NCBI GenBank assembly: GCA_026929865.2
Contig: CM049396.1
Coordinates: 18,717,001-18,781,000, forward strand
Origin: Hyperoplus lanceolatus
Lineage: Eukaryota > Chordata > Actinopteri > Uranoscopiformes > Ammodytidae
DNA: 64,000 nucleotides
Direction: 5' to 3'
Shown: piece by piece, positions 43,497 through 61,960 of the stretch
How the letters are laid out: the number at the start of each line of letters is the position of its first letter
How positions within the stretch are numbered: position 1 is the stretch's first letter
The notes under the pieces: model-generated
Seen by the model: the letters and a program-made list of their open reading frames with translations, nothing else
Told to the model about the DNA's origin: nothing
The model's database searches: none
Made by a program: the position numbers and the translations under genes

Positions 43497-43929
43497 TCAT
43501 CTCCATTGTGATAGTTTGTGCTTCATAATGCACCACATTTTTTCAATGGGACACAGGTATGGACTGCAGACAGGCCAGTCTAGTACCCTCACTCCGAATC
43601 TGGCTCGATATGTCTTGCTTAAATAAGTAGGGGATGTCCCTGAAATAGAATTTGTTTGGATGGCAGCACGTTGCTCCAAAACCTGTACGTACTTCTCAGC
43701 ATTAATGGTGCCTTCATAGATTGGTAAGTTACAAATGCCATGGGCAGTAACCCACCCCCCATCACAAACGCTGGCTATCCAACTTTGGATTGGCAACAAT
43801 CTGGGTGGCCCTTTTCCTCTGGAGCACAGAGGACACAATGTCCATGATTTACAAAAACAATTTGAAATGTAGACTCATCAAACCACAGCACACTGTTCCA
43901 CCTAGCGTCAGTCTATCTCAGATGAGCCC
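43497..43929 (-). pseudogene. Tc1-like transposase fragment
   Basis: On the - strand the sequence encodes VLWFDESTFQIVF (first catalytic Asp), then TAHGICNLPIYEGTINAEKY, and in a shifted frame VRVLDWPVCSPYLCPIEKMW, corresponding to the DWPxxSPDLxPIExxW signature around the second catalytic Asp and the Glu. Frameshifts and the loss of the SPDL aspartate (Y in its place) show it is inactive. The N-terminal part is separated by the nested insertion. Confidence 0.85.
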
Positions 43930-44990
43930 AGAGGGGTATACTACGAAGCGAGATTAAGGGCTGAGCGAAGTCTGTTGAGTCTAAAGCGGTCTAAAGCCAG
44001 AGTTTTCAGTATCACAAAAGGTGGCTCTCTTTTTACCTGGCTAGATCACCGTGGTAACAGAGGCTGCACGGCTAACCTGCCCAGACCAGTTTTTGTTTCA
44101 GAGTTTGAGCTTAAATTCGGCTCTTATAGCGCTGCCCTTTAAGGAAACTACACATTTTGAAATCCCGCGGACCTGACTATATTGTCTGAGCGATATATTC
44201 TCACTGAGGAAACTCGTTAAATAACGAAATTTATTGATCAGTAAGTTAATGAAAGAAACGAAGCCGTGACATAAGGCTTACAGCAGAGTGAACTGTAACA
44301 TCGCGCTGGGGCTTTTTGCCTCATGCATACAGTTATTGATGCAGAACATGTTAAATAGCCTAGACCTACTCTATGCAGCGCCACTCTATGCTCTCACCTC
44401 AAATGGTTTTACCTGGCGATCTACACACACTGGCTCTTAATAAAGCGTTCTATAAAATCACAGTTTGCAACATTATTTCACTGTAGGCTTCTTTCTTTTC
44501 ATCAGTAGCAATTACAGTTGGGACGTGACAGCTGTCACAGTTCGGACATCGCTGCAGACTTGCAGGTTAAGCTTCTCACAGTAGATCCATATTTGTCCGA
44601 AAAATACAGACTACAGTTTTTTTAATGTAGGCCTATTGGTATTTGTAAGATTCAAATAAAAGGCTATTAGTCTAAATCAAAATTGTATTCATTATGATGT
44701 GGCCCAAAATTAAAGTGATTTTCCATAGGCTATTCATTTGGGGACAGTGTCAGACTTAAATTACATTCTTAAGAGTGGGACTATAGGCGTAGTGCTATAA
44801 ATATAGCAAAGTAGCCTATATATATATTAGGCTAAATGGTATAGTGTTCAAATCCGAGTTCAACGTTTAATTGTTTTATAATGTCACGTTACGCACTGCG
44901 AGAACGATCGCCAAGATAAATAAATAATTTCCATGCTGGCAGCATTCCACTGTCCTTATTTGCAGTAAGAGTTTTTTTCGGCTCTCTGTT

Positions 44991-45169
44991 CTATTTCGTT
45001 CCTACTGACCGCCAGAGGCAGTGCTTACAGCACTGGATGTTCCATCGCGCGCATGCGCAGGTCGAGATCTTTATACCAACAAAGTCACCTGTGACACCTG
45101 GGTGACCCCGGGAATGTCTATATATTCCGGAAGTCACCAGAGGATCTGTTCCTTCTATCTTCTCGCGGA
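44991..45169. repeat. DIRS left inverted terminal repeat
   Basis: Begins CTATTTCGTTCCTACTGACC and is the reverse complement of 60428 to about 60590 over more than 150 bp, with few mismatches until the last part, near TCTTCTCGCGG. Confidence 0.9.
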
Positions 45170-46090
45170 CTAGCAGGTCGCACACATTGTTGTGTGATAA
45201 TATACCATTAGCTTGTCGCAAGTAGCTCGTACCTAAGGGTTGGTGCTTCGATTTGACTTCGACCACCAAGGGCTGCGACTTGCAATTCGTTCGACTTGGA
45301 AGGGGTGAGTAAAGTGTGAAGGCTACGCGTAGCCAGGTGTTGTGCCGAATTCCCACTCCCCCGCAGGATCCCACTCCCCTACGCAATTCTTAGGCTTTGA
45401 GGAAACTGTTAGTAGGCTATTTAATTCATGTTTCATCAAAATATAAGTTATGTTGTGCTGCACTAAATAGACGTACTTTGGAGCTGCACTTGAAAAACGA
45501 TGTTGATGTCGATGTTGTGCTACACTGTCCTATTATCGAAATGACGGTAATATGTGAATTATGTTGAAGTTGCGACTGCTGTTATGTCACTGTCTGGTAA
45601 AAGCGAGAATCCTTCTGTGTATTCATTTGTACTAATCATTTTTAGTAGAACTATTCACTTCTGATTCTTGATTACGTTGTACTTGCTGTTATAGGTATAC
45701 TCACGCGTAGGGGAGTGGGATCCTGCGGGGGAGTGGGAATTCGGCACAACACCGGCTACCGCGGAAGCTATTCACCTTTCCACCTTGCTTCGATTAGATC
45801 AGGCGGCGGCTGGGTTCACAGTCGCCGTGCTATTCTTCGTTCGCACCGTTGCTTGTGTGTTTCGCTAAGCCCGGTTGCTAATTGTATGCTCGAATGTATT
45901 GTTTTCTAGCATTGTCGACTGTTGCTCGGGTGTTAACTCGCCTAGACCGGTTGCTTACTTTGATTTAATCGACAGCGAGCGGCTTGGGGTCGGGTCCAAG
46001 CCGCCGCCACATTACTTGTAGCATTGTCGCTGTTGCTCGGCTGCTGAGTTAGCCTAGAGCGGCTGCATAGGCTACTTAATTCAATAGTAT
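45170..46090. other. DIRS 5' region, part 1
   Basis: Non-coding 5' part of the DIRS element, interrupted by a 0.44 kb MITE. After the MITE, motifs such as TTGTCGACTGTTGCTCGG begin the DIRS 5' tandem-repeat theme. No supported gene. Confidence 0.5.
45327..45763. mobile_element. MITE with 49 bp perfect inverted ends
   Basis: GGTGTTGTGCCGAATTCCCA and the next 29 bases at 45337-45385 recur exactly as their reverse complement at about 45704-45752; weaker similarity (GTAGCC/GGCTAC) extends outward. The centre has no coding capacity. Perfect ends suggest recent activity. Confidence 0.85.
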
Positions 46091-46448
46091 CCAGCTGCAG
46101 CCCCGGAGACAAGCACCCTGGCGTGACAACGACACCCAGGCGTGACGGAAGTAACTGTGGTGTGACGGACGTTACCTGTAGATTTTATTTTTGCAACATC
46201 ATAAACTTCTAAGTTGTAAACAACGTCAAACAATAACAAGACAGCAGATCGATACTAAGTTTGTGTTATTTATATTGTTTTGGCGATTAGGTTCAGGCAT
46301 CACAGTTGGGTGGTTAGGGTTAGTGACATAGCAGACATGTCATGGAAGCTAAATAGTCAAAAATCACGTCCGTCACACCACAGTTACTTCCGTCACGCCT
46401 GGGTGTCGTTGTCACGCCAGGGTAACTTGTCTCCGGGGCTGCAGCTGG
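46091..46448. mobile_element. 358 bp MITE with about 85 bp inverted ends
   Basis: CCAGCTGCAGCCCCGGAGAC at the left and its reverse complement at the right continue as inverted copies through GACAACGACACCCAGGCGTG and AGTAACTGTGGTGTGACGGA. No target duplication is evident. Confidence 0.85.
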
Positions 46449-46978
46449 ACCCTACTCACTTAATTTGCTCGTCAGGTGGGCGGCTTCGGGTCAGAAGTCT
46501 CTTTCACTGTTGTACTTGAGCTGTGTCGCACCAATCGTGTGCTCTCACCTAAGCCTTGCGTTGGATAGCTTACTTTGTTGCTTGCCAGTGGGTGAGCTGT
46601 GCCAAATACTAGTATGCTGTTGCATACAATGTATGCTGCTGTATTGCTCGCCGGTGGACGAATTAGTTTCCTATATCGCCTTCACCGTGTTATTTAGCCA
46701 TGTCACACTGTTGCTCGTGTGCAGGCTGCTGTAGTGTGTCTCCAGTGGCAGCTCAGTTTCACACCACTGTATTATTATAGCCATGTCGCACCAGTGCACG
46801 GTAGCTCACGCCTTAGCCTGGTTGCATAGGCTAATTTATTCGCTCGCCAGTGAACGTCTTGGGATCCAAGTGTTGCCGTCACTGTGTTATTTAAGGCGCA
46901 TTGTTGCCTGGGTGTGCTCTCGCCTGAGGCTCGATTGCTTAGCCTTCGTTGATTTGCTCTCCAGTGGGCGGCCGGCGT
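46449..46978. repeat. DIRS 5' tandem-repeat region, part 1
   Basis: Motifs such as TTGCTCGCCAGTG, GTGTTATTTAGCC and CTCTCGCCT recur and are the same as those in 55620-56725, in the same orientation. This was one continuous region before the 8.5 kb insertion at 46979-55455. Confidence 0.7.
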
Positions 46979-47224
46979 GGTGAAATTGGTTTTATATTCG
47001 ACATTCGTCTATTTTCCGGGGTTGTAACTGTAATAGCGTCACGAAAACCGCACCAATTTCCTCCAGAAAGGTATTATTATGTACAGAAGACTAAGACTGA
47101 CATTGCACAGGCTTGATCAACTCACCAAAATCAGCGAGTCTCGCGAAAGATCACAGAAACCGCGCCGAATATAGTTTTTAGTGCCACACGGCAGCGGACT
47201 GCTTAGGGACCGTCGCAAAAGTGC

Positions 47225-49990
47225 AACGTCTTTTTTCTATTCTTAATAACTCACTGGAAATTCATCCTATCAACACCAAACCACTTCTGTTGTGTTTATG
47301 AACTCATTTTGTAGTTACCACAACCCTTTGTTTTAAAGAAAAACCTTTGATTTTTTTTTAAAAAGGGAAAATTATTCAGTGTGTATATTGCTTCCATATT
47401 TAAGGCTATTTTTTTCAATAGCTCACTGTTTTTTATAGTTATCAACACCAAACCAACTCTGGTGTGTTCATGAACTCACTGTGGAGTTCCCACAGCCCTT
47501 TATTTTCAAGGAAAAACTTTTAATTTTTTTTAAAGGCAAAAGGAGTCATATATTTAATCCATATTTAAGGCTATTTTTTCAATAGCTCACTCGTTTTTAT
47601 AGTTATCAACACCAAACCAACTCTGGTGTGTTCATGAACTCACTGTGGAGTTCCCACAGCCCTTTATTTTCAAGAAAAAAACTTTGAATTTTTTTTTAAA
47701 GGCAAACGGAGTCAGATCATATATTTAATCCATATTTAAGGCTATTTTTTCAATAGCTCACTCGTTTTTATAGTTATCAACACCAAACCAACTCTGGTGT
47801 GTTCATGAACTCACTGTGGAGTTCCCACAGCCCTTTATTTTCAAGAAAAAAAACTTTGAATTTTTTTTTAAAAGCAAACGGAGTCAGATCATATATTTAA
47901 TCCATATTTAAGGCTATTTTTTCAATAGCTCACTCGTTTTTATAGTTATCAACACCAAACCAACTCTGGTGTGTTCATGAACTCACTGTGGAGTTCCCAC
48001 AGCCCTTTATTTTCAAGAAAAAAACTTTGAATTTTTTTTTAAAGGCAAACGGAGTCAGATCATATATTTAATCCATATTTAAGGCTATTTTTTCAATAGC
48101 TCACTCGTTTTTATAGTTATCAACACCAAACCAACTCTGGTGTGTTCATGAACTCACTGTGGAGTTCCCACAACCCTTTGTTTTAAAGAAAAACCTTTGA
48201 TTTTTTTTTAAAAAGGGAAAAATATTCAGTGTGTATATTGCATCCATATGTAAGGCTATTTTTTCAATAGCTCACTCGTTTTTATAGTTATCAACACCAA
48301 ACCAACTCTGGTGTGTTCATGAACTCACTGTGGAGTTCCCACAGCCCTTTATTTTCAAGGAAAAACTTTTAATTTTTTTTAAAGGCAAAAGGAGTCAGAT
48401 CATATATTTAATCCATATTTAAGGCTATTTTTTCAATAGCTCACTCGTTTTTATAGTTATCAACACCAAACTAACTCTGGTGTGTTCATGAACTCACTGT
48501 GGAGTTCCCACAACCCTTTGTTTTAAAGAAAAACCTTTGATTTTTTTTTAAAAAGGGAAAAATATTCAGTGTGTATATTGCATCCATATTTAAGGCTATT
48601 TTTTCAATAGCTCACTCGTTTTTATAGTTATCAACACCAAACCAACTCTGGTGTGTTCATGAACTCACTGTGGAGTTCCCACAGCCCTTTATTTTCAAGA
48701 AAAAAACTTTGAATTTTTTTTTAAAGGCAAACGGAGTCAGATCATATATTTAATCCATATTTAAGGCTATTTTTTCAATAGCTCACTCGTTTTTATAGTT
48801 ATCAACACCAAACCAACTCTGGTGTGTTCATGAACTCACTGTGGAGTTCCCACAACCCTTTGTTTTAAAGAAAAACCTTTGATTTTTTTTTTAAAAAGGG
48901 AAAAATATTCAGTGTGTATATTGCATCCATATTTAAGGCTATTTTTTCAATAGCTCACTCGTTTTTATAGTTATCAACACCAAACCAACTCTGGTGTGTT
49001 CATGAACTCACTGTGGAGTTCCCACAGCCCTTTATTTTCAAGAAAAAAACTTTGAATTTTTTTTTAAAGGCAAACGGAGTCAGATCATTTATTTAATTCA
49101 TATTTAAGGCTATTTTTTCAATAGCTCACTCGTTTTTATAGTTATCAACACCAAACCAACTCTGGTGTGTTCATGAACTCACTGTGGAGTTCCCACAACC
49201 CTTTGTTTTAAAGAAAAACCTTTGATTTTTTTTTAAAAAGGGAAAAATATTCAGTGTGTATATTTCATCCATATTTAAGGCTATTTTTTCAATAGCTCAC
49301 TCGTTTTTATAGTTATCAACACCAAACCAACTCTGGTGTGTTCATGAACTCACTGTGGAGTTCCCACAGCCCTTTATTTTCAAGGAAAAACTTTTAATTT
49401 TTTTTAAAGGCAAAAGGAGTCATATATTTAATCCATATTTAAGGCTATTTTTTTCAATAGCTCACTGGTTTTTATAGCTATCAACACCAAACCAACTCTG
49501 GTGTGTTCATGAACTCACTGTGGAGTTCCCACAGCCCTTTATTTTCAAGAAAAAAACTTTGAATTTTTTTTTTAAAGGCAAACGGAGTCAGATCATATAT
49601 TTAATCCATATTTAAGGCTATTTTTTCAATAGCTCACTCGTTTTTATAGTTATCAACACCAAACCAACTCTGGTGTGTTCATGAACTCACTGTGGAGTTC
49701 CCACAGCCCTTTATTTTCAAGGAAAAACTTTAAATTTTTTTTAAAGGCAATTTGGAGTCATATATTTAATCCATATTTAAGGCTATTTTTTCAATAGCTC
49801 ACTGGTTTTTATAGTTAGCAACACCAAACCAACTTTGGTGTGTTCATGAACTGACTGTGGAATTCCCACAACCCTGTATTTTCAAGGAAAAACTTTAAAA
49901 ATTTTTTAAAGGCAAAAGGAGTCATATATTTAATCCATATTTAAGGCAATTTTTTCAATAGCTCACTCGTTTCTATAATTAGCAACACCA
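47225..49990. repeat. About 16-unit satellite array (about 171 bp unit)
   Basis: TATCAACACCAAACCAACTC recurs every 163-173 bp from 47268 to 49985. Two unit types alternate irregularly: one with CAACCCTTTGTTTTAAAGAA then ATTCAGTGTGTATATTG, the other with CAGCCCTTTATTTTCAAG then GGAGTCAGATCATATATTTA. The outermost units are the most divergent. Confidence 0.95.
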
Positions 49991-50502
49991 AACACTGGGT
50001 CTATGCCCAGGCAAAGGGTCTCCCAGCCAGGGGAGAGTGATGGCTTGACTGGGGTCAGAGGGAATAAAATGAAAGAGGAATAAAAGAAAGGGGGGGAAAA
50101 AAAGGTCAAATATAATGGGGCCGTTTGGAGGAAGCACAGCCCAGTCATAGTGAGTGAAAGAAGGGAGAAGGCGCTGGTGCTCTGCCTTGGTGAAGGGTCT
50201 CCCAGACGGGTAGAGTGGTGGCAGGCCTGGGGTAGGAGGGACAAGGCACTGGGGCCCTGCCTGGGTGAAGGGTCTCCCAGACGGGCAGAGTGGTGGCAGG
50301 CCTGGGGTAGGAGGGACAAGGCACTGGGGCCCTGCCTGGGTGCAGGGTCTCCCAGACGGGCAGAGTGGTGGCAGGCCTGGGGTAGGAGGGACAAGGCACT
50401 GGGGCCCTGTCTGGGTGAAGGGGGGCCCTGCCTAGGTGAAGGGTCTCCCAGACGGGGAGAGTGGTGGCAGGCCTGGGGTAGGAGGGACAAGGCACTGGGG
50501 CC
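49991..50502. repeat. 75 bp GC-rich minisatellite
   Basis: GGGTCTCCCAGACGGG starts at 50195, 50270, 50345 and 50441 (the last unit has 21 extra bases). The unit is 75 bp, a multiple of three, so frames of up to 175 codons with 25-residue repeats stay open on both strands. There is no other sign of a gene. A related single unit lies near 50010. Confidence 0.9.
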
Positions 50503-51470
50503 CTAAATTGCTGCATCATGCTTATTATCCAAATTCTGGGATTGGAGTGATTTGTGCCAAAGGGCCTGGGTGAGTTATAAGTAAGTAAGTAAGTAAAATG
50601 TATTTATAAAAGCACATTTATGACAGTGTGCACTGTCCAAAGTGCTGTACATAGTGCATTCAGTAGGTAAACAATGAAGGTAAAATAACAATAACCAAAA
50701 TAAAAGACGTAAAGCCCATACATCCACATAAACACAGATAGTAGTGCAGAGGTAAGATAGTTAATGGGGAGGAAACACCAGTGTGTACAGATGGGTTTTG
50801 AGCCTTGATTTAAAGGCAGAAATGTAGGGGAATCACATTTGTCAGGTGGCAGTTGGTTCCACAAGCATGGAGCAACTAGTGCAAAGTACATTTCTGAGAG
50901 TTGTGCCAGTGGCATGGCTGTATACGCTGGTCACCAAAAGAAAGTGATTGTCTACAGTAGCTCAGAAGAGAGTGACATCTCAATTCCACTTAACGACACC
51001 ACTGACAAGAGTTCAGATGGCCAGAAAGATGATGATGGTGACTTTGTCATTGTGAGCTTTGCAGGTAAAACCATTAGATCTGCTAGGCCTTGTTTAAGAA
51101 AGTTGTCCTTCAATCGTTGTCAACTATTTACTTTATTTACTTTAAATACACCTTAAATAAGTGATTGTCTAATGGATTTGTCTTGCATTACAGTTTATGA
51201 GATATATATCAATGGCACAATTCACCCCATGGTATTCTCTCCAACCGCACAACTTACACCACACCGGGGGCAAGTTGTGCATCAAGACAACTTTTTGTCC
51301 GAAAGCTATATTTCCTCAACAGTTTATTCCAGATCCAAAGTTTTTATTGCCAGGGATGCACAACACCCCGAAATATATGTACATATTTGAGTTGGAGACT
51401 TTACTGTCAAGGCCTTACTTTAAAGTCACTTTGAGTGAAAAGTTGCACAACTTAGGCCACTCTCCCCTAT
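50503..51470. mobile_element. Truncated second copy of the TA element
   Basis: Matches 33960-36170 but lacks the left end and the 1.26 kb MITE. The right end reads CTCTCCCCTA as in copy 1. On the + strand 50839-51064 contains [20 protein letters not shown] and an acidic tail up to GCAGGTAAAA; TTGCATTACAG at about 51182-51192, before VYEIYINGT, looks like a matching acceptor, suggesting an ancestral spliced transposon gene. Confidence 0.75.
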
Positions 51471-51659
51471 TGTATTTTTCATGAAGTTGAGTTTTAACCT
51501 GTAAATATTTTCTTCTTTTCTTATGACCTGTTGAGATTCCCTTATAAGCTCCTTCGAGTTTTTTAACTTCCACTCCTTTCTCTTAATTTTATTGAGTGTT
51601 ATGATGTATTGTTGTATATTTTAATGAATGTGTGCAAATAAAATAAAGTCAATTAACAC
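51471..51659. other. Centre of the satellite-bearing element
   Basis: AT-rich DNA with no recognised repeat, followed by inverted satellite units. Confidence 0.5.
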
Positions 51660-52092
51660 ACAATAAGTGGTTTGGTGCTGAAATGTTGAAGTACAAGTGA
51701 GTTATTAAAAAATAAACGCCTTAAGTAGGAATCAAATTTACAAACTGATTACTTATTCCGTTTAAAACTCTTGTAAAGGTTTTTCTGAAAACCAAACGGG
51801 TGTGGAAACTGAGCAATTGAGCTATCAAAAAATAAAAGCCTTACATATGAATGCAAAATATGCACTGACTACTGATTCCTTAAAACATTTTTAAAGGTTT
51901 TTCTTGAAAAGAAAGGGTTGTGGGAACTCCACAGTGAGTTCATGAACACACCAGAGTTGGTTTGGTGTTGATAGCTATAAAAACCAGTGAGCTATTGAAA
52001 AATAGCCTTAAATATGGATGCAATATACACACTGAATATTTTTCCATTTTAAAAAAAAATCAAAGGTTTTTCTTTAAAACAAAGGGTTGTGG
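51660..52092. repeat. Inverted satellite units, part 1
   Basis: About 2.5 units of the 171 bp satellite in reverse orientation (GGTTGTGGGAACTCCACAGT at about 51917). They belong to the right arm of the element at 46979-55455. TTGTGG at 52087-52092 is the left target duplication of the next element. Confidence 0.9.
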
Positions 52093-52929
52093 TATGGGGC
52101 TATTATTGTAGCTAAACGTTTGCAAATGTGTATTTGTGTATTTGCGATTTGTATTTGCGTTTGCAAATGCGCATTTGTGTATTTGCGATTTGTATTTGCG
52201 ATTTGTATTTGTGTATTTGCGATTTGTATTTGCGTTTGCAAATTTGTATTTGCGATTTGCATTTGCGATTTGTGTATCTGCAAATGGTTTTGTGCGTGTG
52301 GGCACAGATTTGTGTCTGCAATTGGATTTGCGATTTGTATTTGCGATTTGTATTTGCGATTTGTGTATCTGCAAATGGTTTTGTGCTTGCACACAAAGAT
52401 TTGTGTGTGTGTACACGGTTCTGTGTATAAACACATCTGTAAATTATATTAATTGTGGTTCTAAAAGCTCAAATAGACTAAGTCTTTTTACAAATCTCTT
52501 TTTACAAAGCCATGGAAGAACTGTAGCAAAAGTCACGTGGTGTAGCAAAAGTCACGTGTGAAAAGACAGACACGTTGATTGGTCAATGTGTTACAGTGGC
52601 AGGACTCTTATTTTGAAAATCCCTAAACCGGATGTAAACAGAGCTTTGGCTATGAACCCATGTGGGCTATGCATGGAGGTGTAGTGGAGACAGAAGGCGA
52701 AGAGTGCTAACGGACACTGCAGTTGACAAAGCACTTCAACTTCAAGTAGTTTAAAAGTAAGTATTGATTAACAATTTTCCTTTTTTTTCTTTTCAAGAAT
52801 CATTCGTTCCTATGTAAATCTCAGTGATATCGGATACGTTTGCAAAGAGGAATCCCCTCGTGAATGCGTGCCGTGGAAGGACCATTGTGTGTCATTGATT
52901 ATGTGTCCGTAGGCTATGCTGTGTGCTTG

Positions 52930-52965
<36 letters not shown>

Positions 52966-53981
52966 GGTGTCGGAGCTCGTTGTGCGGTCTTGTTGTTCAC
53001 ATATTTAAAAGAGAAGCTACCCAAGGCTTACAACTGGATGGACAAAACTGACGAAGATGAAGCGATTGCCGGTGTTGAAACTCTCACTCGCGTTATTAAA
53101 ATAATTATTGTGACGATGTTTCACATCAAGCTAATGGTCCTTCCACGGCACGCATTCACGAGGGGATTCCTTTTTGCAAACGTATCCGATATCACTGAGA
53201 TTTACATAGGAACGAATGATTCTTGAAAAGAAAAAAAGGAAAATTGTTAATCAATACTTACTTTTAAACTACTTGAAGTGCTTTGTCAACTGCAGTGTCC
53301 GTTAGCACTCTTCGCCTTCTGTCTCCACTACACCTCCATGCATCGCCCACATGGGTTCATAGCCAAAGCTCTGTTTACATCCGGTTTAGGGATTTTCAAA
53401 ATAAGAGTCCTGCCACTGTAACACATTGACCAATCAACGTGTCTGTCTTTTCACACGTGACTTTTGCTACACCACGTGACTTTTGCTACAGTTCTTCCAT
53501 GGCTTTGTAAAAAGAGATTTGTAAAAAGACTTAGTCTATTTGAGCTTTTAGAACCACAATTAATATAATTTACAGATGTGTCTATACACAGAACCGTGTA
53601 CACACACACAAATCTTTGTGTGCATGCACAAAACCATTTGCAGATACACAAATCGCAAATACAAATCGCAAATACAAATCGCAAATCCAATTGCAGACAC
53701 AAATCTGTGCCCACACGCACAAAACCATTTGCAGATACACAAATCGCAAATACAAATCGCAAATACAAATCGCAAATACAAATCGCAAATACACAAATAC
53801 GCATTTGCAAACGCAAATACACAAATACAAATCGCAAATACAAATCGCAAATACACAAATACGCATTTGCAAACGCAAATACAAATCGCAAATACACAAA
53901 TACGCATTTGCAAACGCAAATACAAATCGCAAATACACAAATACACATTTGCAAACGTTTAGCTACAATAATAGCCCCATA
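52093..53981. mobile_element. Foldback element with hexamer-repeat arms
   Basis: Inverted arms of about 790 bp (52093-52883 and about 53130-53981) start TATGGGGCTATTATTGTAGC at both ends. Next come arrays of ATTTGC/ATTTGT hexamers (52110-52385 and 53640-53955), then single-copy arm sequence. A 6 bp target duplication, TTGTGG, lies at 52087-52092 and 53982-53987, confirmed by the intact satellite text GGTTGTGGGAACTCC. The centre (52884-53130) includes a GT run and a frame with YLKEKLPKAYNWMDKTDEDE of unknown origin. Long frames in the arms result from the hexamer repeat. Confidence 0.88.
52932..52964. repeat. (GT)16 microsatellite
   Basis: A pure GT run in the centre of the foldback element. 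Confidence 0.95.
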
Positions 53982-54420
53982 TTGTGGGAACTCCACAGTG
54001 AGTTCATGAACACACCAGAGTTGGTTTGGTGTTGATAGCTATAAAAACCAGTGAGCTATTGAAAAAATAGCCTTAAATATGGATTAAATATATGACTCCT
54101 TTTGCCTTTAAAAAAATTTAAAGGTTTTCCTTGAAAATAAAGGGCTGTGGGAACTCCACAGTGAGTTCATGAACACACCAGAGTTGGTTTGGTGTTGATA
54201 ACTATAAAAAAAACAGTGAGCTATTGAAAAAAATAGCCTTAAATATGGATGCAATTACACACTGAATAATTTTCCCTTTTTTAGAAAAAATCAAAGGTTT
54301 TTCTTCAAAATAAAGGGTTGTGGTATCTACAAAATGTGTTCATAAACACAACAGAATTGGTTTGGTGTTGATAGGATGAATTTCCAGTGAGTTATTAAGA
54401 ATAGAAAAAAGACGTTGCAC
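53982..54420. repeat. Inverted satellite units, part 2
   Basis: Continuation of the inverted satellite after the foldback insertion, about 2.5 units, ending with the type carrying AAAGGGTTGTGG next to the terminal repeat, mirroring the left arm. Confidence 0.9.
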
Positions 54421-54549
54421 TTTTGCGACGGTCCCTAAGCAGTCCGCTGCCGTGTGGCACTAAAAACTATATTCGGCGCGGTTTCTTTGATCTTTCTCGA
54501 GACTCGCTGATTTTGGTGAGTTGATCAAGCCTGTGCAATGTCAGTCTTA

Positions 54550-55334
54550 GGGCCCGTGTCCACCTAACGCCTTTTTCCAGCGTTAAACGCTGGCTGTGCG
54601 CTCGGGAGTGTGTCTACTGAGCGTTTTTTTTTGACTGCTTTTTTCAAGCGTTTTATGAGCTGGGAGAGCTGGGAGAGAGAGCGCTGTGATCGGGGGAGAA
54701 AAAAAGCTGATCGTCACCTGTCAGTCAGACCTATGATCAACACTGGTTTAACTGTTTAGGCTTGCTGTTTTCTATTTAAATCGTTACATTTTAATATGAG
54801 TAGCCTTATGAAACAGAGAATACTTTCCACCATCCTCTGTTTGGATGAGGAGTTATCGCGGCTCCTGCAAACACACACGGAGAAAGTTGTAGGCTGACGT
54901 GTGCGCTTGAAACGATCCGTAGGAGATACAAAAATACAGCAAATCAAGTGTTCGCCTAATCTGCTCCCACAAACGGGCTCTCCTCCCTCTGTTCTGGTCA
55001 TTTTCTGGTCACTATTTTCATACAGTTTTGGGTAAACAGAGACGGAAAAAGCAGTTTCTCTTCCGTCTTCTTTGTTGCCGAGGCGACGAGTCCCGACGAT
55101 CTACTATCTGATTGGTCCTTTGAAAAAAGCGGCGGTGACGTCCCCACCGCCTTTCTGAAAAGTTAAACTTTTTTCAACTGGAAAAGCTCGAAGCGGCCGC
55201 ACAAAAAGTCAAAAACGCTCGGAAAAAAGTTTTCTCCGAGCGGCCGCCTTTTGTCGAGGCGGCCGCTTCTCATTGGGAATCAATTGAAAAAAGGCGCTTG
55301 CGGTGGGAAAAAGGCGTTAGGTGGACACGGGCCC
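54550..55334. mobile_element. PIF/Harbinger-type MITE with TTA target duplication
   Basis: Ends GGGCCCGTGTCCACCTAACG are identical for 29 bp. They are flanked by TTA at 54547-54549 and 55335-55337. The opposite arm of the host element has the empty site (GACTAAGACTG at about 47090, i.e. CAGTCTTAGTC on the other strand), proving an exact insertion with a 3 bp TTA duplication, as in PIF/Harbinger. The 785 bp interior has GCGGCCGC sites near the right end and no transposase. Confidence 0.93.
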
Positions 55335-55455
55335 TTAGTCTTCTGTAGGCTACATAATAATACCATTCTGGAGGAAATTGGTGCGGTTTTCGTGACGCTA
55401 TTACAGTTACAACCCCGGAAAATAGACGAATGTCGAATATAAAACCAATCTCACC

Positions 55456-56725
55456 CCGGTTGGGTGGCCGGGGTTACCTGGAGCCGCTGACAACGCCAGG
55501 GGACTACAGATAGAGAATAGCATTTTGGCTAATTCTAGCATTAACCCATGTATGATCATGTCTTTTGTTATATGCACTGTCCCCTTCTTAAATAAACTGA
55601 ACTGTGTTGTTTAGGGGGTTGCATTGTTGCTTGTGTGCACTCTCGCCTAAAGCTCAATTGCCTAACCTACTGTAACTTGCTTACACCGCCACTGTGTATT
55701 CTAGCGGTGAAGCATATTTTAATTGGCTCGACAGGCCGCATTGTTGCTTGGGTGTGCTCGCCTAAAAGCTCGATTGCCTAGCCTACTGTAACTTGCTCGC
55801 CAGTGGGCGGCATAGTTTACACCGCCACTGTATTATTCTAGCAGTGTCGCACCGTGGTTCGGGTGCTCTCGCTTGAAGCCCGGTTGCATACCTTATTCGG
55901 ATTACATATTTTAATTGGCTCGACAGGTCGCATTGTTGCTTGGGTGCTCTCGCCTAAAGCTCGATTGCCTAGCCTACCGTAATCATGCTCGCCAGTGGGC
56001 AGCATAGTTTTACACCTCCACTTTTTTATTCTATCGGTGTCGCATCGAGGCTCGGTTGCTCTCGCCTAAAGCCCGGTTGCATACATTAGTTGCTCGCCAG
56101 TGAGCGTCTTGGGTTTCCAAAAGTTGCCTTCACTGTGTTATTTTAGCTGTCACACCGTGGTCGTGTCTGTGCAGGCTACTTCAACTTGCTCGCCAGTGGG
56201 CGGCATGGTTACACTGCCAATGTACTATTCTAGCGGTGTCGCACCGTGGCTCGGTTGCTCTCGCCTGAGGCCCGGTTGCATGCCTTAGTCGGATGCATAT
56301 TTCAGCTGGCTCGACTTTGGCTAAATTCTAGCATGTTTTACTGTAACTTGCTCACCAGTGGGCGTAGTTTTACGCCACCACTGTATTATTCTAGCGGTGT
56401 CGCCCTTCTTATATGTCCATGGGTGTCGCACCGAGGCTCGGTTGCTCTCGCCTAAAGCCCGGTTGCATACATTGGTTGCTCGCCAGGGAGCGTCTTGGGT
56501 TTCCAAGAGTCGCCTTCACTGTGTTATTTTAGCTGTCACACGGTTGTCGTGTCTGTGCAGGCTACTGTAATTTGCTCGCCATTGGGCGCTATAGTTTGCA
56601 CCGCCGCTGTATTATTCTGGCGGTGTTGCGCCGTGGCTCGGCTGCTCTCGCCTGAAGCCCAGTTGCATACCTTAGTCAGATGCATATTTAGTTGGCTCGA
56701 CAGCGGGCAGCTTACGCCTTCATGA
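55456..56725. repeat. DIRS 5' tandem-repeat region, part 2
   Basis: Repeated phrases include TCTCGCCTAAAGC, GGCTCGACAG, CTTGCTCGCCAGTGGGCGG and ACTGTATTATTCTAGC. Larger blocks recur about 380 bp apart (GAGCGTCTTGGGTTTCCAA at about 56103 and 56489). This is presumably an untranslated leader of the DIRS element; frames of 60-76 codons are not genes. Confidence 0.75.
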
Positions 56726-56729
56726 CCTC

Positions 56730-57900
56730 CATACAGTGGGGAATGGCCATGACAAGTGCCCTGCAGGTCTCGGGGTTGAGCACCTGAGGGAAGCGCTGTC
56801 AGATAACCCATGCATGAATTATAGTTTCATGTCTCAGGCACTTAGGTTGCTAGGTAGAGGCTCTTCTTAGCCTCCAACCAGCTCATGGTACCAGTGGCAG
56901 TGAGTAACCTTGCGGCTGGGCATCCTTCCTACTACAGGGGATGACATGCTGTCCACAGCTGCGTCCTGTAACCTCTTAGAGGTGGGCAGCTCGGCTAGAG
57001 GGTCAGTGTCCGTCCGTGACTCGCCGAGTATGGGGTTAGATGAAGCTCTGGTTTCATCTGCACCCACGAATGCCTTCTTTTCGGCAGGTCCTAATCCTCC
57101 GTTCTGTGGCCTCCCTCTGAGCCTTATTCCGCAGAGCTCCGTAGATGCTGGCCAGATTTAAGGGCTCTCTCATCACACTAGTGACAGCAGAGCTCTGGCA
57201 GCCATGCACAATGCTGATAGTTAGGGCTTGGACTGGTTAGCTCTGATTGAGCCTGCTATAGCATCCTTGGTTGTCTCTCCAGGCGAGGCTCTGAGAGCCG
57301 ATTTGCGCTGTCCTCGGCCCCAGTGCCGGATTTCAGGCAACCTCCTTACTAGGAGTTACGACATTGCTGCCTGTGTGGGCCATCTGGGAATTTGCTTCTC
57401 ACACAGTCCTGGCTCGGTCGCAAACCATACAGGGGTCAGGTGCTGGTCACTCAGCATGGACCCTCAGTGATGCTTCTCTGCAGACTTTGCATTATGATTT
57501 AGGGAGCTAGGCAGGTTGATGTCAACTGTGGCGTGGCGCGCCACCAGGGTTGGCTGGCGCAGTCGTCCCAGTCGGAGGTGTGTCGACAGACCCTCCGTTC
57601 TCTTCCAGTGATACCAGGCCAGCCGTTCGGCCAGCTGCTCTTCAGGCCCGGTGCGAAGTGTTCAGGTTGACCAGGCTAGACAGTAGTTGCACGCTGCGGC
57701 GTGCACCTCTGCCTGATTCCAGGCCGGGAACCTCTGTGGTACCCCGTGCCAATAGCTTCAACCACGTTCAGGTGGACAATCAAGGGGCCAGTGCTTCTCA
57801 GCACATTCTGTACAGCGCCGTAACACTGCGCTACAGCTGCATTTCAGGCGCCAGGAGGTCGGCGTCCAGCCTCCGCCCTTCCCCAGAGTCTTTGGGGGTG
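56730..57900 (+). pseudogene. DIRS gag-like relic
   Basis: Position, and a frame reading GDDMLSTAASCNLLEVGSSA, resemble the first open reading frame of fish DIRS elements. Multiple stops and frame changes follow. The assignment rests on position and on one recognised phrase. Confidence 0.45.
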
Positions 57901-57939
57901 CTACTCGATGCTCGGTAGGTTCTACTCAACCTAATTCCA

Positions 57940-58920
57940 GATGCCAGGAAGTGGGGCGGGTTCGCCCCGTTCTGGACTAAGAGGGCAGAATCAGTGCCTC
58001 ACGGTTCTTCCTTCCACATGCTGCGTGTTGCAGGTGTCCTCCAGTCTATCGCTCAGGCGGACTGGGTTGTGTCATAGCCCTGAAAGATGCTACTTTCAAG
58101 TCCCTACTGCCCAATGTCACAGGTGGTCCTCCCCTTTGCATTTCTGGGCAAGGTGTACCAGTTCAGGGTTCTTCCGTTTGGGCCGTCCCTGGCTCTGCGT
58201 ATATAAAACAGTGTGCGGCAGCATCCCTGTCACCATTACAGCTCAGCTGGTGCTCGACTCGGCGGCCATGCGAGCCTGCCTTTTCTCCAGAGTGCGTAGC
58301 TACCAGTCGGCAGCTACTACTTCATGCAATGGAGACTGCTGGAGTACAGCCTCTTCCTTCGCAGGGGGGCACCAGATCGAGGCGGAGCCTGCGGGTCGCG
58401 CAGGGGCTCCTTACAGGGGTGTTCCCCCATTTCCTAAGCCTAAAGGCTGTCCATGTTCCAGGTGTCCGGAACACAGCGGCAGACCTTCTCTCTCGCCAGA
58501 AGCCACCCTCCGGGGAGTGGATGCTCCATCCGGAGGTGGTGGGCATGATTGGGACAAGTATCCCTGCCACCATTACAGCTCAGCTGGTGCTTGACTCGGC
58601 GGCCATGTGAGCCTGCCCTTCTCCGTAGCACGTAGCTACCGTTCAGCAGCTACTACAGCACTTCATGCAATGGAGGCTGCTGGAGTACAGCCTCTTCCTT
58701 CGACTAATAAGTATGCTGACCTCAGCATTATCTAATTATCATTATCTAAGCTGTCCAAGTGTCAGGTGTCCGGAACACAGCGATAGAAAAGGGCCACCCC
58801 CGGGGAGTGGAGACTCCATCCGGAGGTGGTGGGCATGATTGGGACAAGTATGGCAGGGCAGTGGCATATCTCTTTGCTTCCGAAGAGATGACCCACTGTC
58901 CCCCTGTGTTCTCCTAGATG
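57940..58920 (+). pseudogene. DIRS reverse transcriptase and RNase H relic
   Basis: Across frames one reads QADWVVS, then VVLPFAFLGKVYQFRVLPFG, the palm-domain region preceding the catalytic motif, and further on LKAVHVPGVRNTAADLLSRQ, a characteristic RNase H/connection stretch. The YxDD box is missing: sequence between about 58200 and 58330 is replaced by a duplicated block (CATTACAGCTCAGCTGGTGC occurs at 58217 and again at 58571). The enzyme is dead. Confidence 0.75.
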
Positions 58921-60260
58921 GAGAAGACCAGTCCCCTAAGGCAGGATGCTCTGGCTAATGCTTGGCCAGTCAGCCTGCTTTATGCATTTCCTACAATTCT
59001 TCTGTTACTGACAACACTGGATGGGGTCCAGCATTGCAGTTACAGCCTACGTTTGGTGGCTCCACATTGGCCAGGGAGGCCATGGATCCCAGCGTTACTA
59101 AACTCCTCAAGGAGAGCCTTGGTGCCTTCCAGGGAGACAGGACCTTCTGTCTCAGGTAGGCGGACACATGTGGCACCCGAACTCGGGGCGCCTGCAGCTG
59201 TGCGTGGGGCTCCTGGTAGCCAGGACCCACTGGGACGTATTGCGACCAGTCAGAGGTCTATACCCTTTTACTTCAGGGGCACTCTCCACTACATGGCGCT
59301 ATGCAAACGGGTGGAAGTTGTTTTCACAGTGGTGCATGGCACATGGCGAAGTCCCATGGACTTGCTCAGTGATAGTGATACTACACTTCTGCAGTCTGTG
59401 TTGGGCAGCAGGAGAGCTGCTTCCACCCTGTGCGTCTATGTGGCTGCGATATCGGCCGCACATGCAGGGGTGGATAACCAGACGGTAGGGTCCCACTACC
59501 TAGTCAGGTAGTTACTGAGGGGAGGCCAGAGGCTTCATTCAGCCACCATGACCCCTGAGGGCACCATCATGGGACTTGCAAGTAGTCCTGAGGGCCTTAG
59601 GTCTACCCCCATTTGGGCCGCTGAGTCAGGCAGACCTGACGCGGCTGTCTATGAAGACGGCATTCCTCCTTGCCATTGCGACTGCAATCGGTCGGTGAAC
59701 TCCATGCCTCGTCAGTGAGCCAGGCGTGCTTGCTCTGGCATACAGAAGGGTCAGGAGTGGTGCTCTCACCAGATCCATCCTTCCTATCCAAACGATTGTC
59801 TCCCCACTATGTAAACCAATCGATTGAGTTGGCTGCTTTCAATCCCCTAGGCTCACCAGGGGGTGCAGAAAGAATGTCAGACCCACTATGCCCGGTGCGG
59901 GCGCTTAGGGCATAGGTTGTGGCAACAACCAGCTTGCGTAAGACAAAGACAATACCTCTTGCCTGTTATGGGAGCTGCAGGGAGGGGGCTTCCCTGTCCA
60001 AACAGAGACACTCCCACTGACTTGTGGATGTGGTCTTGAATGCATAGAGCACAGGGGCTCCCCATGCCTTGGCCGTTGAGTGCCACTCTACCAGGAGTAT
60101 GGCTACATCATGGGCTGCCTTGAAGCAGATTTCACGGCAGGACGTTGCGCCACGGCTACATGGTCTCCATCATGTACGTTGCGCGGCTCTACAGAGTAAA
60201 TGTTGCTGCACCTCATCCGGTGGGATGACAGCTGTCTTGTTGATGGCTGTAAGCCCTTAA
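58921..60260 (+). pseudogene. DIRS tyrosine recombinase relic
   Basis: Early part: DALANAWPVSLLYAFPTILL and LVAPHWPGRPWIP. Then QADLTRLSMKTAFLLAIATA, VGELHASSVSQACLLWHTEG and RLSPHYVNQSIELAAFNP, as in DIRS recombinases. Near the end VARLYRVNVAAPHP carries the likely catalytic tyrosine. The arginine expected just before VGEL is replaced (QSVGEL), and there are frameshifts and stops throughout. Confidence 0.8.
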
Positions 60261-60295
60261 TTGATGAGTACTCTTCGTGACCTTTTTGGTATAAG

Positions 60296-60395
60296 TCATC
60301 CAGTGCTGTAAGCACCGCCTCTGGCGGTCAGTAGGAACGAAATAGAACGATAGTTACGTATGTAACTACAGTTCTATGAGTTCCGGATGACCGCC
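60296..60395. repeat. DIRS internal complementary region
   Basis: GGTCAGTAGGAACGAAATAG is the complement of the left terminus (44988-45015); it runs directly into AACGATAGTTACGTATGTAA, the complement of the right terminus (60610-60633). The join is at a single shared GTT (AAC on this strand), as expected for a circular-junction template. Confidence 0.92.
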
Positions 60396-60427
60396 AGAGT
60401 TCTCTGTCACTCAGACTTCTCAGACAC

Positions 60428-60630
60428 CGCGAGAAGATCCAGTTGGAACAGATCCTCTGGTGACTTCCGGAATATATAGACATTCCCGGGGTCACCCAGG
60501 TGTCACAGGTGACTTTGTTGGTGTAAAGATCTCGACCTGCGCATGCGCGCGATGGAACATCCAGTGCTGTAAGCACCGCCTCTGGCGGTCATCCGGAACT
60601 CATAGAACCGTAGTTACATACGTAACTATC
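60428..60630. repeat. DIRS right inverted terminal repeat
   Basis: Reverse complement of the left terminal repeat plus an extension (TCATAGAACCGTAGTTACAT) to the end of the element. Confidence 0.9.
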
Positions 60631-61960
60631 GTTTTCTGCTGTAATAATTCAGACTGACAAACTCTTCCTCTTGAATGAAGTTGGCGACACACTTTTGTTT
60701 TACTCAGCTGCTCACAATCAGTCCGTTTGTGTAAAGTTACCGGCACAAGATCAGACGCGCAAAGGGGGCATTCGACCCGTCATTTGACTCTGCTTCCGCA
60801 CAGACTGGACTGATCTTATGCCGCTAACTTTACACAAACGGACTGATTGCGAGCAGCTGACTTCGCTGACTTCACTCAAGAGGAAGAGTTTGTCAGTCTG
60901 AATTATCACAAAAAAGCAGAAAACAGAGAGCCGAAAAAAAACTCTTACTGCAATTAAGGAGAGAGTGGAATGTTGTCAGAAAATTGGGCTACTGAATTGA
61001 TTAATTTATTTTACAGATTGTTCTCGCAGTGTGTAACGTGACATTATAAAGCATTAAAGGCGTTGAACTCTGGATTTAAACAGTACACCATTTAGCCTAG
61101 TTGAATGATAATCCTACATTTAATAATCTGATTTAAATCTGACACTGTCCCCTAATGAATAGCATAGCCTATGTGGAAAACCACTGTGTTTTGGGCCACA
61201 TCAAAATTAATACGATTTGATTTATGCTAATAGCCCTTTATTTGCATCTTATAAATACCATTAAAATAAATAGCCTAGATACAAACCTGTAGTCTGTATT
61301 TTCCGGACAAATATGAATCTACTGTGAGAAGCTTAACCTGCGAGTCTGCAGCGATGAACTGTGACAGCTGTCACCTGTCACGTCCCAACTGTAATCGCTA
61401 CTGATGAAAAGAAAGAAGCACACAGTGAAATAATGTTGCAACCTGTGATTTTATAGACTACACTATTAAGAGCCAGTGTGTGTAAAATCATTTGAGGTGA
61501 GAGCATAGAGTGGCGCTGAATACAGTAGGTCTAGGCTATTTTACATTTTCTGCATCAATAAATACGCATGGCAAAACGCAGCGCGATGTTACAATTCACT
61601 CTAATGTAAGCCTTATGCCACGGCCTCGCTTTCAGTTTCACATTTACTTACTGATCAATACGTTCACTGATTTAACTAGTTTAGCCTAATTAGCAGGGAT
61701 GTACGCTCAGACAATATAGTCAGGTCCGCTGGGATTTCAAAATGTGTAGTTTCCATAAAGGGCAGCGCTCTAAGAGCCGAATTTAAGGTCAAACTCTGCA
61801 ACAAAAACTGGTCCGGGCAGGTTAGCTGTGCAGCCTCTGTTACCACGGTGATCTAGCCAGGTAGAAAGAGAGCCACATTTCGTGATACTGAAAACTCTGG
61901 CTTTAGAGACTCAATTAGACCCTCGATCAGCCCTTAATCTCGCTCGTAGTATACCCTCAG

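Follow-up and report, generated by a model that had tools for sequence, protein, structure and literature searches.

The window analyzed here, i.e., the whole stretch of 64,000 nucleotides from Hyperoplus lanceolatus contig CM049396.1, contains at 44991-60630 an element whose sequence organization marks it as a DIRS1-like retrotransposon, decayed and belonging to a fish-type family. The element lies between two GTT trinucleotides on the plus strand, the left junction GTT at 44988-44990, which is the target/crossover trinucleotide, and the right junction GTT at 60631-60633. An earlier sequence-only reading had described a DIRS element between GTTs, with an internal complementary region (ICR) that encodes the junction, and this observation is confirmed on the letters of the window. 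Both ends of the interval that it gave, 44988-60633, are correct, but about 8.5 kb within it is a nested palindromic (inverted-repeat) insertion at about 46976-55458, with no strand assigned. Because this insertion interrupts the element, a single DIRS element of 15.6 kb is ruled out. The insertion holds a 2.7-kb tandem array of 171-bp repeats (47268-49993) and a further insert at about 54551-55333.

The decayed coding region (57520-60200, plus strand) consists of peptide pieces in shifting frames, which by eye we take to be RT/RNase H-like and YR-like; no methyltransferase was recognized among them. The third-frame translation of 58902-60300 contains the HSTR motif, which is named in PMC3266345. 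No Pfam family was matched at E values up to 1 by the open reading frames and X-masked frames of the element, and Rfam gave no match in the window. The 71% identity of an internal repeat (58220-58561 vs 58557-58851) was dropped as a date of decay, since it is mainly gaps that depress the value. The proteins that mobilized this copy were probably made elsewhere.

Termini and internal complementary region

The left terminus starts with a divergent part of the inverted terminal repeat (ITR), delimited by alignment (44991-45006, plus strand), which has its counterpart in the left ICR half. It is followed by the conserved part (45007-45152, plus strand), identical at 144 of 146 positions to the complement of the conserved right ITR (60445-60590, minus strand). 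The ICR (60297-60399) is the complement of the sequence right end-GTT-left end. Its alignment with the reverse complements of both termini, which had been proposed as a check, shows a left half (60297-60345, minus strand) complementary to the left end at 48 of 49 positions, the core AAC (60346-60348, minus strand; GTT on the other strand), i.e., the encoded trinucleotide of the circular junction, and a right half (60349-60399, minus strand) complementary to the right end 60580-60630 at 50 of 51 positions. Only 24-29 matches were obtained in controls (one reversed and three shuffled sequences). With up to one mismatch allowed, the junction word TATCGTTCTATTTCG has a single match in the window (60338-60352, minus strand) and none in 100 shuffles; the junction pattern had no matches in wider collections of genome contigs and viral contigs. 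The right end has a near-palindromic right extension (rE; 60609-60630, plus strand), which the ICR also contains. We refer to the 282 bp between the ICR core and the terminal GTT (60349-60630, plus strand) as the 3' block; the window copy has it in the normal orientation.

DIRS1-like elements are recognized by ITRs whose outer part is divergent and whose inner part is conserved, by an ICR that is complementary to both termini and overlaps at the 3-bp circular junction, by an rE that the right end and the ICR have and the left end lacks, and by insertion at a trinucleotide identical to that of the junction, with no duplication of the target. All of these are found in the window element, the last on one empty site, with departures in other copies. 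The split direct repeats of Ngaro/PAT elements, in the order A1-B1-A2-B2, are absent, the termini in the window being inverted.

Target site

The left junction reads CTCTCT-GTT-CTATTTCG and the right junction reads AACTATC-GTT-TTCTGC, while the empty site at 15041-15055 reads CTCTCT-GTT-TTCTGC. The element was received by a fold-back repeat, of which the left part occupies 43918-44987 and the right part 60634-61960 (no strand assigned to either); the left part is 80% identical in inverted orientation to 60922-61956. The left flank (43918-44990) matches 13968-15049 at 91.6% over 1095 columns, and the right flank (60631-60754) matches 15047-15170 at 98.4% over 124. The single GTT of the empty site CTCTCTGTTTTCTGC (15047-15049, plus strand) is kept, as had been claimed, but the site belongs to a paralogous copy of the fold-back repeat, rather than to the same locus before the insertion.

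Genome-wide inversion of the 3' block

A 58-nt pattern that tolerates at most 3 mismatches counts 335 right ends of the family in the genome and none in the control. A 73-nt pattern of right end-GTT-left end, i.e., the junction of an inverted block, was found at 26 places (control, 0). Hence, at 26 of the 335 right ends (7.8%, about one in thirteen), the 3' block is turned around exactly with respect to the body, and the family exists in two isomers, one of which has everything from the AAC of the ICR core to the terminal GTT inverted. We read 27 inverted copies (the 26 pattern places and L054) and 51 normal ones. For example, L109 and L110, which are inverted copies of full extent, have bodies colinear with the normal copies L010 and L016 and the block reversed (in L109, 288 bp at 100%); their inner ITR is direct, yet there is no A-B-A-B order. 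The inverted blocks are 282 bp long in nine copies, 280 in nine, 281 in two and of other lengths in seven. Seven of the nine blocks of 280 bp belong to a subfamily whose 16 normal copies likewise have 280, and 30 of the 35 other normal blocks have 282.

Among the 26 right end-GTT-left end junctions, there was no clear case of integration through the ICR or of a tandem copy. In 25 of them the left end continues into body sequence, in L044 beyond a deletion and in L068 for 9 bases, where another insertion follows; in L069 the interruption already falls within the left-end sequence, too early to tell ICR integration. It should be noted that a permuted copy of the inverted isomer would not be caught by the 73-nt pattern. 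A pattern search shows body sequence ahead of the ICR core in 50 of the 51 normal copies. Inspection by eye shows it in L031, which has a different body sequence there and is counted as normal. Two partial junction matches (1-247 and 1-225) proved to be the interrupted inverted copies L068 and L069. L009, with ITR sequence ahead of its ICR, resembled an ICR-integrated copy for that reason; its alignment is that of a normal copy with a colinear body, the left ICR half having about double the usual length. L039 and L040 represent a duplicated locus with one and the same flank; both are included among the 51 normal copies, but only once in the count of 77 flanks.

The earlier suggestion that GTT would be found at the junctions of other copies is borne out for most of them, with other trinucleotides in some. 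The left-end trinucleotide is GTT in 34 of 36 other genome copies (one TTT and one GAT), and the right or outer one is GTT in 70 of 78 (48 of 51 normal and 22 of 27 inverted copies), a sample partly biased toward GTT. The bias stems from one right-end query that ended in GTT, so that its 40 top right ends favor this trinucleotide; the window copy comes from this set, as do 34 of the 51 normal ones. The left ends (query starting after GTT), the inverted copies (query starting inside the block) and 16 added copies are free of it; the latter came from 40 matches, of which 16 were read, 5 were already among the inverted copies, and 19 lie outside the sample. Non-GTT trinucleotides at element ends are GGT, GAT, GAC, ATT and TTT. 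A strict GTT rule is therefore ruled out, and GTT is a preference. An ATT outer core can arise from GTT by CpG decay.

Recurrence and timing of the inversion

In one subfamily, 16 copies of normal and 4 of inverted orientation have an identical block; identical blocks across orientations are also found in L010/L014 and in L045/L053/L044. The flanks are distinct in all 27 inverted copies. Identical blocks in both states, together with 27 different flanks, lead us to infer that the inversion occurs repeatedly during replication, probably ahead of integration. For 20 of the 27 inverted copies, no other inverted copy is closer than the nearest normal one, and 14 differ from some normal copy by at most one mismatch. 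Five of the 27 have a non-GTT outer trinucleotide and an inner core GTT, and these were counted in favor of inversion before integration; the difference in non-GTT outer cores between inverted (5/27) and normal (3/51) copies is not significant (p = 0.12). For the remaining 7 of 27, the nearest copy is another inverted one. In a poorly resolved tree of 59 rows, which excludes L044, L068, L069 and L093-L108, there are 12 changes of orientation, compared to a mean of 18.9 and a lowest value of 13 in 500 label shuffles. The inverted copies thus cluster somewhat on the tree, and given this and the seven nearest-inverted cases, some of them may descend from inverted parents.

Discussion

The junction and ICR anatomy of the window element is the published DIRS1 anatomy, so the sequence-only reading was largely right, but what it described is known. 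The combination GTT/GTT/AAC is listed for stickleback DIRS (Piednoel et al. 2011, Table 3, PMC3266345), and an integration model with an ICR-encoded junction has been published there for the DIRS superfamily. As in the window element, the stickleback elements GaDIRS1 and GaDIRS2 have GTT at both ends and an AAC circular junction; TnDIRS1a shares AAC but ends in GAT (PMC3266345). In these three elements (PMC3266345), the conserved ITR is 144-148 long vs 146 here, the divergent ITR 19-21 vs about 16-20, the rE 26-27 vs about 22-26, and the ICR halves 36-46 and 56-57 vs 49 and 51; their length is 5.3-5.9 kb, whereas the window copy is decayed and interrupted. Dictyostelium DIRS-1 likewise has ITRs, an rE and an ICR (PMC5633606, PMC4482531), but its junction trinucleotide is TTA, unlike GTT (PMC3266345, Table 3). 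Its ICR has been proposed as the template for missing ends, and circular cDNA was reported in one mutant (PMC5633606, PMC4482531). The supported parts of the earlier interpretation, which hold in other genome copies as well, are the DIRS element, GTT integration without target duplication, and the encoding of the circle junction by the ICR; yet the model was already published, GTT is not obligatory, a large nested insertion lies in the interval, and the copy is decayed.

The new part is the genome-wide second orientation of the ICR/right-end block, which could not be seen in the window alone. We found no report of inverted or isomeric DIRS 3' ends in the open-access literature searched, and the consulted passages of PMC3266345, PMC5633606, PMC9210276, PMC5941688, PMC3783388 and PMC4482531 do not mention a second orientation of the 3' block.

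The explanation that we favor, with a probability of roughly 0.5, is that the block is recurrently inverted before integration by transfer of a terminal hairpin during ICR-templated DNA synthesis, and that the recombinase then integrates the product. A comparable terminal-hairpin transfer produces the flip and flop forms of parvovirus ends. Malicki, in Nucleic Acids Research in 2020, reportedly found DIRS-1 cDNA to be single-stranded and the ICR to be needed. In the proposed pathway, the right end of the cDNA would fold back onto the ICR, its template, and would be extended through GTT into left-end sequence; this extension is the published use of the ICR. The snap-back strand would continue as the second strand, and the hairpin would be cut on the other side of its loop, at the GTT/AAC core. 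The loop, made up of the gap and the inner ITR, would thereby pass to the other strand, leaving the block inverted. Finally, the recombinase would join the ends and integrate the element at W-GTT-TTAT-like sites. The single strand 60296-60633 is predicted to fold into the hairpin that this pathway needs (z -13.7). Variants common to the ICR and the end were found in 5 copies, which fits ICR templating, whereas differences in just one of the two numbered 13 and 8, i.e., more than the 5 shared, which counts against it; L011 and L023 were set aside from this comparison for indels, and L093-L108 lay outside it.

Since the block sits between identical inverted arms, recombinase or homologous inversion would yield the same sequence, and sequence alone cannot decide between hairpin transfer and inversion by the tyrosine recombinase. 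It is possible, though we doubt it, that the element's own tyrosine recombinase inverts the block in a double-stranded DIRS circle, after which either isomer integrates. Such a circle would contain two inverted copies of one attachment site, the junction and the ICR, which resemble each other over about 102 bp; FLP inverts a segment of the yeast 2-micron plasmid in this way. A GTT core with arms at both sites, recurrence in several groups of copies, and precision wherever no later indel blurs the flip (block lengths mostly 280-282) are consistent with a recombinase. However, if the ICR were an equal site, permuted copies should be common, and none is clear among the 26 junctions; moreover, the inverted form, at 7.8%, is far below the 50% expected of free flipping. 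It should be noted that the parvovirus and 2-micron systems are compared here only for their two segment orientations between inverted arms, and no sequence kinship is claimed.

Host homologous recombination or polymerase template switching, before or after integration and without enzymes of the element, could act on the same inverted arms, which are about 53 bp long (102 bp in the circle) and about 180 bp apart, and its products would look alike. Nevertheless, 27 exact flips in one family are many for arms this short, unless they occur at the cDNA stage, and we consider this origin unlikely. An assembler could also have traversed a small inverted loop wrongly at some loci, given that inverted repeats of such a length can leave the path through a short-read graph ambiguous. 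There is, however, no N in the window or in the 253,203 bases of fetched copies, and the 2.7-kb array of 171-bp repeats in the window is resolved, suggesting a long-read assembly, so that such an artifact is very improbable.

The replication of DIRS elements is a long-standing puzzle, in that the incomplete ends of the RNA have to be rebuilt and insertion is carried out by a recombinase rather than an integrase. Recurrent exact inversion at the ICR in one genome looks like the footprint of a replication intermediate, and it makes the models testable, because hairpin transfer, recombinase inversion and homologous recombination differ in their by-products, e.g., permuted copies. The inversion also bears on silencing, because the inverted block carries the inner right ITR, which is a promoter in the best-studied relative. 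In Dictyostelium DIRS-1, the right ITR drives antisense RNA (PMC4482531); a block inverted as in this fish would aim that promoter outward. A speculative and rather doubtful extension is that DIRS replicates as two interconverting isomers, the 3' block being a terminal segment able to invert at the ICR core in every cycle and the ICR serving both as flip site and as template, and that the flip would switch a promoter and so affect silencing, by virtue of the antisense promoter of the Dictyostelium right ITR. If so, antisense RNA from one isomer would feed silencing, whereas the other isomer would transcribe outward into host DNA and escape it.

Element anatomy and decay

The junction letters claimed by the sequence-only reading of the DIRS1-like element at 44991-60630 are present in the window, i.e., CTCTCT-GTT-CTATTTCG on the left, AACTATC-GTT-TTCTGC on the right, and CTCTCT-GTT-TTCTGC at an empty site in a related repeat (15041-15055). 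The overlap between the filled and empty sites is exactly GTT, with a mismatch one base beyond it on each side. A single-GTT empty site thus exists, but it belongs to a different fold-back repeat copy (13968-15216) and is not an allele. The copy that hosts the element is at 43918-44990 and 60631-61960; the ends of this repeat family are like GGGTATACTACGA(A)GCGAGATTAAGGG. Alignment of the internal complementary region (ICR) to both element ends bears out the proposed circular junction: 49 bases complementary to the left end and 51 complementary to the right end adjoin at 60297-60399 via AAC, with one mismatch in each half, compared to about half as many matches in one reversed and three shuffled control sequences. 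In the outer 16-20 bases the left end is unlike the right end, and each ICR half still fits its own end.

This anatomy agrees with that of published fish DIRS1-like elements in the GTT at both ends, the AAC circular junction, the right extension, ICR halves of ~50 bp, and inverted terminal repeats (ITRs) that are divergent outside and conserved inside (146 bp, 144 identical). In PMC3266345, two stickleback elements have a divergent ITR of 19-21, a conserved ITR of 144-148, a right extension of 26-27 and ICR halves of 38-46/56-57, and the DIRS model there has ends matched to the ICR, a circle, and recombination at the 3-bp junction without target duplication. Since both anatomy and model fit the window element, the earlier finding is a correct rediscovery of known DIRS anatomy.

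The 15.6 kb are not a single element. A nested palindromic insertion (46976-55458, ~8.5 kb), bounded by inverted repeats at 46976-47658 and 53983-55458 with a further insert in the right arm (~54551-55333), leaves ~7.2 kb of DIRS. Inside the nested element, whose inverted terminal repeats are 97% alike over 570 bp, are 16 tandem copies of a 171-bp unit and a second, inner inverted repeat of 498 bp at 99% (52242-52739 / 53273-53770). On its two sides, at 45190-46975 and 55459-56703, the DIRS body contains tandem repeats of some 190-390 bp that are degenerate in sequence, and no usual gag region was recognised. The coding region (57520-60200) is broken, with pieces in different frames in which RT/RNase H-like and recombinase-like peptides, the HSTR motif named in PMC3266345 among them, were recognised by eye; a Pfam search of this region found nothing. 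The ITRs look younger than the coding region, and therefore the window copy was probably mobilised by proteins from elsewhere. The longest stop-to-stop frame was shorter than 300 codons in 16 of 20 fetched genome stretches and longer in four. Elsewhere in the window are another young repeat, an inverted pair at 4818-5438 / 10940-11573 (634 aligned bases, 97%), and a tandem array of six 140-bp units (23608-24449, 96% matches).

An inverted 3' block

We searched the genome containing the window (806.7 Mb, 527 contigs) for further copies. Three of the first 20 fetched (L014, L020, L027) departed from the normal map and read right end, GTT, 49-base left-end sequence, and reverse complement of the body; i.e., in element direction, the 282 bp between the ICR core AAC and the terminal GTT, the 3' block, are turned around. 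In the window copy the core is at 60346-60348 and the block, at 60349-60630, has the normal orientation. Among the best 40 right ends, five were inverted (these three, L041 and L044), and a query for the inverted junction gave 24 places at about full length and two partial ones. A genome-wide junction pattern (73 bases, ≤3 mismatches) matched 26 places and a right-end pattern (58 bases, ≤3 mismatches) 335, with no matches to either control, so that the inverted share of right ends is ~7.8% (95% interval 5.1-11.2%). We read 27 inverted copies, all 26 pattern places and L054, which has no pattern match. In two whole inverted copies, both with the usual GTT at the left end, the body is parallel to that of a normal copy: pieces of L109 are mostly 91-99% alike to L010, with the last 288 bases aligned at 100% in reverse, and most of the L110 body is 98.6% identical to L016, with the block likewise reversed.

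Normal L010 and inverted L014 share an identical block and identical neighbouring 113 bases; L045 (normal) likewise has the same block as L053 and L044 (both inverted). In a young subfamily (L059, L061, L063, L064, L093-L108; 20 of the best 40 matches), the 280-bp 3' block is identical in 16 normal and four inverted copies at different sites. A normal copy lies within one mismatch of 14 of the 27 inverted copies; 20 are as close or closer to a normal copy than to any other inverted copy, and the nearest relative of the other seven is inverted. On a tree with 59 rows and weak resolution, orientation labels required 12 changes, compared to a mean of 18.9 (lowest 13) in 500 shuffles; therefore, inverted copies cluster somewhat. 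Flanks differ among all 27. In our reading, the block flipped repeatedly, and some copies inherited the inverted orientation.

Target site

The claim of exact GTT integration held for the large majority of copies, with a few exceptions. Left ends, found by a query beginning after GTT or read in fetched copies, had GTT in 34 of 36 cases (TTT and GAT once each). At right or outer ends GTT was found in 70 of 78 copies: 48 of 51 normal (one GGT, two GAT) and 22 of 27 inverted (three GAT, one GAC, one ATT). It should be noted that 34 of the normal copies, and the window, come from a ranking by a query ending in GTT, which favours GTT; the other 16, free of this bias, had 15 GTT and one GAT. To the right of GTT, 77 distinct flanks are biased (T 0.87, T 0.74, A 0.49, T 0.62, T 0.35, T 0.51), and at the 36 left ends C is absent from the position before GTT, which T or A occupies in 92% of cases. 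Thus, the target is W-GTT-TTAT-like; non-GTT junctions, the observation named by the sequence-only reading as counting against it, do occur but are few. As a tyrosine recombinase site would predict, these flanks (TTATNT) resemble the element left end (CTATTT), matching it on average at 2.81 of 6 positions versus 1.97 for shuffled flanks.

Origin of the inversion

A flip before integration, followed by insertion at a non-GTT target, would be expected to give a non-GTT outer trinucleotide with GTT at the inner core, as in five of the 27 inverted copies. This is not proof, because ATT may reflect CpG decay and the non-GTT rate does not differ significantly between inverted and normal copies (p = 0.12).

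When a single strand of the ICR/right-end region is folded, the ICR pairs with the right end in a long hairpin (z -13.7), and transfer of such a terminal hairpin during ICR-templated synthesis would invert the block; the recombinase might nick it at the core. Some variants common to both arms fit templating of the end by the ICR: a C to T change at base 9 of the right ICR half (L032, L033, L049, L057) and another variant in L069, beside 13 differences in the ICR alone and eight in the end alone. Alternatively, the recombinase could invert the block freely on a double-stranded circle, with the ICR used as a site, and homologous recombination could also give an inverted block; all three routes leave the same sequence. 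Free use of the ICR, however, predicts copies inserted through it, whereas 25 of the 26 inverted junctions run on into the body (L044 past a deletion; L068 for nine bases, then another insertion). No clear ICR-inserted copy was found among these junctions, L069 being interrupted too early to tell, in a search whose pattern would not match permuted copies of the inverted isomer. Among the 51 normal copies, a pattern match places body sequence ahead of the ICR core in 50, and visual inspection does so in L031. Therefore, we prefer terminal-hairpin transfer over free inversion of the circle.

Two further copies are unusual in structure. L009 (G000:C8:19666163-19675163), a normal copy, has a left ICR half of about double length, in which 98 instead of 49 bases match the left end; this looks like templating that continued further into the ITR. 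L099 (G000:C9:18865800-18866390) is a miniature derivative of ~500 bp with GTT at both ends, in which almost nothing separates the left ITR from the ICR and 3' block.

Implications

In the open-access literature covered, we found nothing on inverted or isomeric DIRS 3' ends. The element is of a known kind, and its two-isomer structure is, within the literature searched, new. In Dictyostelium DIRS-1, according to PMC4482531, the left ITR acts as promoter for sense RNA and the right ITR for antisense RNA, an opposing pair from which siRNAs arise. By analogy, the right ITR of an inverted copy would face outward; such a copy is predicted to yield less antisense RNA, and its transcription might extend into the host DNA beside it.
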